This document shows positions 15,869 to 18,914 of a DNA stretch of 42,531 nt, piece by piece (position 1 is the stretch's first letter; every line of letters begins with the position of its first letter). The notes under the pieces were generated by a model, which made no database searches, had not been told where the DNA came from, and was given only the letters and a program-made list of their open reading frames with translations. A program made the translations under genes and the position numbers. This stretch comes from Acidobacteriota bacterium (GTDB lineage: Bacteria; Acidobacteriota; Thermoanaerobaculia; UBA5066; Gp7-AA6): positions 1 through 42,531 of the forward strand of contig QHVV01000008.1 of assembly GCA_003222385.1 (NCBI GenBank), read 5' to 3'.

Positions 15869-16609
15869 GTGATCGAGTTCCGCGACGTCCGCAAGTCGTT
15901 CGGAGAGGCCCGGCCGGTTCTCGACGGGCTCTCGTTTTCCGTGGCGGAAGGGGAGACGCTCGCGCTCGTCGGTCCTTCGGGATGCGGGAAGACGACGGCC
16001 TTGAAGCTCGTGAACCGTCTCCTCGATCACGACTCCGGAGAGGTCCGCGTGTTCGGGCGCGACGTCCGGGGCGAGGACCCGATCGCTTTGCGGCGTCGGC
16101 TCGGTTACGTCATCCAGGAGGCGGGACTCTTTCCCCACTGGAGCGTGAAAGAGAACGTGGAGGCGGTTCCGCGGCTCCTCGGCTGGAAGCAGGCCGAAAG
16201 ACACGCACGGTCGGAAGAGCTGCTCGCGCTCGTCGCGCTTCCGGCCGCGGAATACGGCGAGCGGCGGCCGCGGCAGCTCTCCGGCGGACAGCGGCAGCGC
16301 GTGGGCGTCGCCCGTGCCCTCGCTGCCGACCCGCCCGTCCTCTTGATGGACGAGCCGTTCGGCGCGCTCGATCCGATCGCGCGGCGCTCGATGCAGAAGG
16401 AGTTCCTGGATTGGAAGCGGAGGCTTCGCAAGGCCGTGTTGCTGGTGACGCACGATCTGCGCGAAGCGTTCCGGCTGGGCGACCGCGTGGCGATCCTGGA
16501 CCGCGGGAAGGCGCGGCAGACCGGAACGCCGCGGGAGATCCTCGCCGCGCCGGCGGACGACTTCGTGCGCGAGTTCGTGTCCGACGAGCTTCCGGGAGCT
16601 CCGCCCTGA
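15869..16609 (+). CDS. Glycine betaine/choline-type osmoprotectant ABC transporter, ATP-binding protein (OpuCA-like)
   Basis: GPSGCGKTTALKLVNRLL, LSGGQRQRVGVARALAADPPVLLMDEPFGALDPIAR. GTG at 15869 or TTG at 15857 as start. Confidence 0.85.
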   Translation: MIEFRDVRKSFGEARPVLDGLSFSVAEGETLALVGPSGCGKTTALKLVNRLLDHDSGEVRVFGRDVRGEDPIALRRRLGYVIQEAGLFPHWSVKENVEAVPRLLGWKQAERHARSEELLALVALPAAEYGERRPRQLSGGQRQRVGVARALAADPPVLLMDEPFGALDPIARRSMQKEFLDWKRRLRKAVLLVTHDLREAFRLGDRVAILDRGKARQTGTPREILAAPADDFVREFVSDELPGAPP

Positions 16610-17235
16610 GCGGCCTCGCCGCTTATTTCTGGGAGCGGCGGACCGAGATCGCCGCTCTGACGGGAGAGCACGTCGTGCTGGTGGTCGTCTCGACGGCGCT
16701 CGCCGTCGGAATCGGAGTTCCGCTCGGCGTCGCGCTCACGCGGCGCCCCCGCCTGGCGCGCCCTGTCCTCGGCTTCGCAAACGTGGTCCAGACGATTCCG
16801 AGCCTCGCGCTCTTCGGTTTTCTCATTCCGATCCCCTTCATCGGCGGCATCGGAGCGCGCACCGCGATCGCCGCGCTCATCGTCTACGCGCTCCTTCCCA
16901 TCCTCCGAAACACGCACGCCGGGATCGCCTCGGTGGACCCCGCGGTGATCGAGTCCGCGACCGGGCTGGGCATGACGAAGCGGCAGCGCTTGTGGTTGGT
17001 GGAGCTGCCGCTCGCGCTGCCGGTCGTGCTCGCCGGCGTCCGGATCGCGACGGTGGTTTCGATCGGCCTCGCGACGATTGCCGCGGCCATCGGGGCGGGC
17101 GGCCTCGGGGTCCTGATCTACCGGGGCGTCGCGATCGTCGATCACCGTCTGATCCTCGCCGGCGCGGTTCCCGCGGCCCTGCTCGCGCTCGCAGCGGACG
17201 CAGGTCTGGGCTTCGCCGAGCGCCGCCTCCGATGA
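16606..17235 (+). CDS. Osmoprotectant ABC transporter permease (OpuCB-like)
   Basis: VPLGVALTRRP...VVQTIPSLALFGFLIP...IGARTAIAALIVYALLPILRNTHAGI...LPVVLAGVRIATVVSIGLATIAAAIGAGGLGVLIYRG. Start uncertain (CTG at 16606?), overlapping the ATPase stop. Confidence 0.82.
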   Translation: MSGLAAYFWERRTEIAALTGEHVVLVVVSTALAVGIGVPLGVALTRRPRLARPVLGFANVVQTIPSLALFGFLIPIPFIGGIGARTAIAALIVYALLPILRNTHAGIASVDPAVIESATGLGMTKRQRLWLVELPLALPVVLAGVRIATVVSIGLATIAAAIGAGGLGVLIYRGVAIVDHRLILAGAVPAALLALAADAGLGFAERRLR

Positions 17236-17236
17236 T

Positions 17237-17281
17237 GGGGTCAGGTCTCCACTTGCCACATCGGGGGCCACGCTGCCACAT
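17237..17281 (+). repeat. 45-nt GGGGTCAGG inverted-repeat arm, left of the substrate-binding gene
   Basis: GGGGTCAGGTCTCCACTTGCCACATcgggggccacgCTGCCACAT; pairs in inverted orientation with 18202-18246, 41/45 identities by eye. Confidence 0.88.
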
Positions 17282-17286
17282 GCCCG

Positions 17287-18159
17287 CTAGCGCGATTTCA
17301 CCGTCCTTCTGAGGAACTCGCGCGCGACGTCCTCCGGTCGCCGCTTGTCCTTGTCGACCGCCGCGTTCATTTTTCGCATCGTCGCGGCGTCGATCGTACC
17401 GGCGAGCGAGTCGAAGAACGCCCGGACCGCCGGGCGCTGCCAGACCTCCGGTCTCAGAACGAACGCCGCCTCGTACGGCGGGAAGTACCGCCGGTCGTCC
17501 TCGAGCACCACTCCTCCGATCGCGTCAATCAGGCCGTCGGTCGAGTTGCCCGCGACGAGGTCGACCCGGCGGCTGGCGAGCGCCTGATAAAGGAGTCCGA
17601 GATCCATCTGCACGGGCCGCTGTGAGAAGCGGAGGCCGTAGGTCCGTGCGAGCCCCGGGAAGCCGTCTTCGCGCTCGAGGAACTCGTATCCGAAACCGGG
17701 CCGGATCTCCGGGTGCGCCGCCAGGTCGGAGATCTTCGTGATGTGAAGGCGCGCCGCGTCGTCGCGGCGCATGACGAGCGCGAAAGTGTTCTCGAAACCG
17801 AGGGGAGCCGACCAGACGAGGTTCCAGCTCTTCCGGTACTCCTTCGCGACTTCGGCTCGGACGACCTGCGGCTCCGAGACCGGTTTACGGGCGAGGATCG
17901 CTGTGAATGCGGTTCCGGTGTACTCCGGATAGAGGCCGAGCTCGCCGGCCTTCAAGGCCTGATGACAGACGAACGTGCCGCCCAGGTTCAGCCGGCGGTC
18001 GACGCGCACGCCGCGGGCCTCGAGTCCCTGCGCCGCGATTTCACCCAGGATGACCTGCTCGGAGAAATTCTTCGACCCGACCCGGATCGGCGGTTCGCCT
18101 TCCCGATGGCAGGCGCTCGCGAGCGCCAGAAGTACGGCGAGGGCTCCGCGCGCTTTCAC
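17287..18159 (-). CDS. Osmoprotectant ABC transporter substrate-binding protein (OpuCC-like lipoprotein)
   Basis: ASACHREGEPPIRVGSKNFSEQVILGEIAAQGLEARG...LYPEYTGTAF...NSTDGLI. Confidence 0.88.
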   Translation of the reverse strand: MKARGALAVLLALASACHREGEPPIRVGSKNFSEQVILGEIAAQGLEARGVRVDRRLNLGGTFVCHQALKAGELGLYPEYTGTAFTAILARKPVSEPQVVRAEVAKEYRKSWNLVWSAPLGFENTFALVMRRDDAARLHITKISDLAAHPEIRPGFGYEFLEREDGFPGLARTYGLRFSQRPVQMDLGLLYQALASRRVDLVAGNSTDGLIDAIGGVVLEDDRRYFPPYEAAFVLRPEVWQRPAVRAFFDSLAGTIDAATMRKMNAAVDKDKRRPEDVAREFLRRTVKSR

Positions 18160-18201
18160 GTCTTAGTGTGATGTTCCAGCCCCGAAAGCGACCGGGCGTC
18201 G

Positions 18202-18246
18202 ATGTGGCAGCCTGACCCTCAATGTGGCAAGTGGAGACCTGACCCC
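18202..18246 (-). repeat. 45-nt GGGGTCAGG inverted-repeat arm, right of the substrate-binding gene
   Basis: Reverse complement GGGGTCAGGTCTCCACTTGCCACATtgagggtcaggCTGCCACAT; the first 25 nt are identical to the left arm. Confidence 0.88.
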
Positions 18247-18248
18247 AT

Positions 18249-18809
18249 TTAATTTTCGATCAAGCGGAACGTCGGGACGACGTCCCGTCCGAGCACGCTC
18301 CTCAGAACGGTCGCGTGGAGCACCTCGTCCGACAGGATCCGGCCGGCGGACGCGGAAAGCGCGCGGTCCTGGAACTTGTCGACGACCGTCAGGTAGGCGC
18401 GCGCCGCCCCCACTTCGAGCTTGAACGCGAGCTCGAGCACGTCCTTCTCGTTCGCGAGCGGGACCCCGAAGACGTACTCCTTCTTCGGTTCGACCGGGCT
18501 TCCTCCCTTGCGCTTGACCGCGTCCACGATCAGGTCGCGGTGGATCTCGTGGCTGCCCTGGAACGCGAGACCGACTTCCTTCGCTTTCGCGGAGAGGAGG
18601 CCGCTCTTCCCGGCGAGGCCGTACGCCCAGATGGCCTCGTGCTCGAGCGCGAGCGCCGTGTTCAGGAGCGTGATGTCGTCTCCCGGTGCGGCGCCTTCCT
18701 TCGGGGAAAGCCCGATCAGAGGGCGGCCGGCGGCGGCGAGACCGAGCGCGAGGCCGGTCCGGGCGGCTGCGCGAAAAAAGTCGCGGCGCGGTTGGTGAAT
18801 CATGCGCAC
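18249..18809 (-). CDS. Ferritin-like domain protein with Tat-like signal
   Basis: RRDFFRAAARTGLALGLAAAG; ALALEHEAIWAYG...HEIHRDLI...EVGAARAYLTVV...DEVLHATVL. Confidence 0.75.
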   Translation of the reverse strand: MRMIHQPRRDFFRAAARTGLALGLAAAGRPLIGLSPKEGAAPGDDITLLNTALALEHEAIWAYGLAGKSGLLSAKAKEVGLAFQGSHEIHRDLIVDAVKRKGGSPVEPKKEYVFGVPLANEKDVLELAFKLEVGAARAYLTVVDKFQDRALSASAGRILSDEVLHATVLRSVLGRDVVPTFRLIEN

Positions 18810-18859: not shown

Positions 18860-18894
18860 AAAAATCCCCGGCCCGGCGCGCAGCCGGACCGGGG
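18860..18894 (-). terminator. Rho-independent terminator after the DUF4331 gene
   Basis: On the minus strand: CCCCGGTCCGGC-TGCGC-GCCGGGCCGGGG followed by ATTTTTCTC. Confidence 0.75.
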
Positions 18895-18914
18895 ACGAAA
18901 AGATCAGACCGTCC

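Follow-up and report, generated by a model that had tools for sequence, protein, structure and literature searches.

A substrate-binding protein gene inverted between two copies of a transposase-associated dispersed repeat in an Acidobacteriota genome

Organization of the transporter locus

The window, that is, the whole 42,531-nt stretch of DNA from an uncultured acidobacterium that was analysed, contains an ABC transporter locus in which an OpuAC binding domain, an ABC ATPase and a binding-protein-dependent permease are encoded together (Table 1). As in OpuC/ProU/OsmF-type operons, the three genes are adjacent and follow the order of the nearest relatives; unlike in those operons, the gene for the binding protein is reversed here, and a repeat lies between it and the permease gene. 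The binding protein matches the OsmF model NF049931 (6e-34) below that model's cut-off, and the best NCBIfam match of the ATPase, TIGR01186 (proV), also falls below its cut-off. Because all NCBIfam equivalogs remain below their cut-offs, the transporter is described without a substrate assignment.

Table 1. Features of the transporter locus and its flanks, with positions in the window
Feature	Position	Strand	Basis
ABC transporter ATPase (ProV/OpuCA-like)	15869..16609	+	PF00005, 8.5e-35
ABC transporter permease (ProW/OpuCB-like)	16609..17235	+	PF00528, 2.9e-22
Left copy of dispersed repeat (TIR/REP-like, GGGGTCAG... type)	17237..17281	+	41/45 identical to right copy
Substrate-binding lipoprotein gene, OpuC/OsmF-type ABC transporter	17287..18159	-	PF04069 (OpuAC), 2.2e-60
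42-nt gap between right repeat and start of binding-protein gene	18160..18201	-	Sequence
Right copy of the same dispersed repeat, inverted	18202..18246	-	Inverted-repeat finder, alignment
Ferritin-like gene	18249..18809	-	PF13668, 4.3e-21
Terminator-like hairpin between DUF4331 gene and ferritin-like gene	18864..18896	-	Terminator scan

The two repeat copies form the arms of an inverted repeat. An initial annotation had described them as 45 nt long, with 25 nt identical and 41 of 45 positions shared overall, and alignment reproduced these values. The perfect match covers the initial 25 nt, GGGGTCAGGTCTCCACTTGCCACAT, and an inverted-repeat finder stretches the arms to 65 nt at 82%. No other inverted repeat in the 8 kb around comes near this pair in length, and with up to three mismatches the 25-mer occurs at two places in the window, which are the arms themselves (shuffling expectation 0.00). 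Gene calls and Pfam matches bear out a further part of that annotation, namely that the arms enclose the substrate-binding gene alone, on the minus strand, with the ATPase and permease genes on the plus strand. The fit is tight on both sides, with 1 nt between the end of the permease gene and the left arm, and 2 nt between the right arm and the stop of the ferritin-like gene. The idea that the arms are hairpins or members of known RNA families was rejected, since either arm folds no better than its shuffles (z about +0.9) and the one Rfam match is at chance level. The scan that located the terminator-like hairpin of Table 1 is weak, with 5 such sites found against 3.2 expected.

Orientation of the gene in related genomes

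In G001 and G002, two genomes of the same family, the corresponding block consists of ATP-grasp, chalcone isomerase-like, FAD enzyme (-), ATPase (+), permease (+), binding-protein, ferritin-like (-) and sigma factor genes. In both, the binding-protein gene lies on the permease strand, its start overlapping the permease stop by 4 nt, and the ferritin-like gene is convergent with these two co-directional genes. A fusion of permease and binding protein in the relatives, considered on the basis of long stop-to-stop frames, was discarded, as the genes are separate with the 4-nt overlap. Gene calls outside the window were made with a simple codon-based script.

Wider sampling gave the same arrangement. 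The binding-protein gene is co-directional with the permease gene in 13 of the 13 relatives fetched for synteny. A protein-similarity search returned 80 loci, and in all 72 of those with a permease detectable within 1.5 kb the two genes are co-directional, this set including a few genomes that also belong to the synteny set. The initial annotation had also proposed a comparison of orientation in related genomes; none of the relatives examined has the gene reversed, and the present window is the sole exception among the relatives and loci compared. At the two corresponding junctions in G001 and G002, no arm-like sequence was found. With the same block carrying the gene on the permease strand in these two genomes, and with the two repeats exactly at the two breakpoints here, the earlier view that the segment is flipped holds: as judged from sequence comparison, the binding-protein segment is inverted in this genome relative to its relatives.

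State of the reversed gene and loss of a neighbour

The reversed gene encodes a full-length, intact protein. Pairwise identities of the binding proteins among this genome, G001 and G002 are 68, 67 and 66%, so that the protein is no more diverged from those of the two relatives than they are from each other, and dN/dS is about 0.3, without acceleration. These values suggest that decay of the gene is either absent or recent. The ferritin-like gene, on the same strand, ends 89 nt upstream of it, and the terminator scan found no terminator-like site between the two, so that both may be transcribed together. A sigma-70 consensus scan detected no promoter in front of the reversed gene. As the gene may be read with the ferritin-like gene, its present orientation is not clearly an off state.

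In G001 and G002, the binding-protein and ferritin-like genes are separated by a gene of about 100 aa. It is absent from the window, and no match to it was found in this genome, which indicates that a clean inversion does not account for the whole change and that the locus also lost a piece. In the relatives, this small gene (L060:9685-9972; L061:6515-6778) is conserved and has a hydrophobic, membrane-like segment, without a Pfam match.

A dispersed repeat family linked to a RAYT/TIRYT-type transposase

The arms belong to a repeat family that is spread through the genome. Its 13-nt core, GGGGTCAGGTCTC, has 44 exact occurrences, against 0 for the reversed control, and a 23-mer allowing up to three mismatches has 79 matches at about 61 genome sites, again with 0 for the reversed control. 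Copies commonly consist of a single unit of about 27 nt or of two in tandem; another common form is roughly 100 nt long and has a strong hairpin (z -6.3). The close variant present here (up to two mismatches over 23 nt) occurs in 0 of 60 relatives and so has expanded in this lineage. Single copies also stand between the genes of seemingly intact operons, for example between ExbB- and ExbD-like genes in L035 (named by eye from sequence), so the arrival of a repeat between the permease and binding-protein genes would be ordinary. A literature search on the repeat's own sequence returned unrelated papers only.

Several observations connect this family to a transposase. The genome contains one Y1 transposase gene, whose product scores 80.2 bits against the NCBIfam model NF047646 for REP-associated tyrosine transposases (cut-off 80). 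A double repeat copy lies directly upstream of this sole RAYT gene, and the contig ends on the other side. In G001 (contig C16), repeats stand on both sides of the RAYT gene in inverted orientation (106379+, gene 106938-107339 on the minus strand, 107402- and 107440-); these repeats are of the GGGGTCAGGTCT type, and two-sided flanking is seen in this relative only. Two further genomes have a GGGGTCAGGTCT repeat just upstream of the transposase start. Order-level genomes without a RAYT match contain 0-1 GGGGTCAGGTCT copies, and those with a RAYT over the cut-off contain 26-82 copies in eight of nine cases, the exception being G020 with 2. Repeat copy number thus follows the presence of RAYT across order-level relatives, as membership of a RAYT-associated family implies. 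The RAYT protein of the present genome (C17, L074:1-957) continues for roughly 170 aa at its C-terminus past the REP-transposase domain; this extension has no Pfam match, and its last part resembles a DNA-binding helix region.

The terminal inverted repeats (TIRs) of TIRYT transposases share a GGGGWSAS motif, and published TIRtron examples include Acidobacteria (PMC3733652). The repeat start, GGGGTCAG, fits this motif. Besides this start, the present family shares with TIRtrons (PMC3733652) a copy placed immediately before a RAYT-type HUH transposase gene and a dispersal in single copies, tandem doubles and inverted pairs. It differs from them in that the copies at the locus, 45 nt long and of the tandem-unit form, do not themselves form a hairpin, and in that the downstream TIR is off the contig. 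REPINs and REP doublets (PMC3116915, PMC2817692) offer a second comparison: other copies of the family likewise form inverted pairs with a short spacer and a strong hairpin and are mostly extragenic, whereas the copies at the locus lie about 1 kb apart around a whole gene, and for them no canonical GTAG head of REP sequences (GT[AG]G at a hairpin foot) was established. As ordinary members of a dispersed repeat of TIRYT/RAYT type, the arms constitute no private recombination site.

Proposed origin of the inversion

The best reading of the inversion, and a likely one, is that it arose through two transposase-associated repeat copies and recombination between them. The two copies would have arrived independently and in opposite orientation, one after the permease gene and one after the binding-protein gene. 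Recombination between them, either homologous or by strand-switching at a fork, would then have turned the segment of about 1 kb round, leaving the gene intact in reverse and co-directional with the ferritin-like gene upstream. Given about 61 repeat sites and some 3,400 gene junctions, the latter being an estimate made here, a repeat would be expected at both breakpoints by chance in about 3 in 10,000 cases. Recombination over a perfect core of 25 nt is expected to be rare, which counts against this reading, as does the absence of the small neighbouring gene.

The segment probably inverted in a rare event confined to this lineage and then stayed as it is, without serving as a dedicated switch. 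The genus is represented by one genome, a draft of 231 contigs, which leaves the inversion undated and polymorphism conceivable. The locus provides a clean and polarised case, in which a transposase-associated dispersed repeat stands at both ends of a one-gene inversion and relatives supply the ancestral order. It also illustrates that small repeats can remove a gene from an operon and place it behind another gene without destroying it.

Alternative explanations

One alternative is that the binding-protein gene travelled within a repeat-gene-repeat cassette, which the TIRYT transposase would have excised and put back, reversed, at the site that the block had occupied. A second gene of this genome, encoding MarC, stands in the same kind of frame: on contig C169, a PilT stop is followed by a repeat, MarC, an inverted repeat and the stop of an opposing ABC-2 permease gene. 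In G001, the PilT and ABC-2 permease genes are adjacent, with about 100 nt between them, while the MarC gene has a different location in both G001 and G002. Pairs of adjacent repeat sites no more than 2 kb apart number 8, against 2.0 under a uniform model, and 5 of these 8 pairs face inward, one of the five being a 39-nt hairpin. The cases are few, however, and REPtrons reportedly do not transpose as whole units (PMC6006769). Two other inward-facing pairs, on C17 (APC/LolA) and C178 (YbhB), enclose a resident gene together with an extra one, which weakens the notion that repeat pairs are clean cassettes everywhere, and a gene that still sits at its own locus is explained by simple inversion. 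Movement of the binding-protein gene as a cassette is therefore considered unlikely.

The MarC gene between its two inward-facing repeats (L077:4670-5444; G000:C169:24669-25443) is single-copy in this genome, and its surroundings in G001 are shared with G002; its position suggests that a gene flanked by two repeats was relocated. A broader proposition, equally unlikely, is that the HUH transposase that spreads the repeats, or recombination at them, moves and flips whole single-gene cassettes between inward-facing repeats. The binding-protein and MarC genes, flipped and relocated respectively, would be two examples. If this were true, dispersed REP/TIR elements would bound improvised composite elements by which genes pass from one operon to another.

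A reversible switch was the interpretation put forward by the initial annotation, which regarded the segment as a candidate invertible cassette whose orientation could switch expression of the binding protein relative to the transporter. In such a switch, recombination across the arms would turn the gene round repeatedly; the binding protein would be produced together with the transporter in one orientation, whereas in the other it would be produced together with the ferritin-like gene or would not be produced. In favour of a switch, 25-nt perfect inverted cores surround exactly one intact gene, and the genome encodes one serine recombinase at another place (C99). Re-inversion would also give a plausible operon: the earlier placement of the re-inverted gene at 17324-18196, 88 nt past the permease stop, is arithmetically right. 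The arms, however, are common to about 60 other sites and hence not specific to this segment, no recombinase occurs among the 35 reading frames of the window that were scanned, and a genome search that covered serine recombinases placed the one at C99 unlinked to the locus. The whole-gene flip of a solute-binding protein is also unlike known surface-structure switches.

Three other inverted pairs in the genome, the outward-facing pair on C17 and the pairs on C221 and C178, speak further against switching. Their tested resident genes, namely the residents of the C17 outward and C221 pairs and the UDG gene within the C178 pair, keep the orientation they have in the relatives, so that a general rule by which inverted repeat pairs invert their contents was abandoned. 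Phase-variable invertons with dedicated recombinases (PMC5903667) are similar in that a segment lies between inverted repeats and its inversion alters the relation to neighbouring genes. They differ from the present locus, which has no recombinase among the window frames scanned, has widely shared arms, encloses a whole transporter gene instead of a promoter and shows no second orientation in the single assembly. With generic arms, no invertase found in the window and three other pairs without inversion of the resident genes tested, expression switching is not supported and is regarded as very unlikely. The case advises caution: the genome-wide status of a repeat should be checked before inverted repeats around a gene are called a switch.

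An assembly artefact, in which short reads were misjoined through the repeat, is highly improbable: the assembly is a draft of metagenome type and some of its contigs end at repeat copies, but the perfect match between the arms extends over 25 nt only, which is shorter than the final k-mers in common use, the arms differ on both sides, the contig runs through both of them, and misassembly would leave the loss of the neighbouring small gene unexplained.

Other repeat copies in the genome

Elsewhere, an EamA-like transporter gene lies between inward-facing double repeats (L078:3055-4040; G000:C193:26055-27040). It is split into two frames, by a frameshift or a sequencing error, and no ortholog was found in G001 or G002 at 1e-20. 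Near repeats, the contig end L021:1-260 overlaps with L038:1-330, and L022:1887-2136 with L040:160-420, in each case with several percent difference, which would fit a mixture of two strains in the assembly. On contig C17 (L074:957-3987), repeat copies are apparently read into coding sequence: an aminotransferase ends in ...RSPLATSGVRSPLAT, and an aldehyde dehydrogenase frame can begin within a repeat copy (VASGDLTP).
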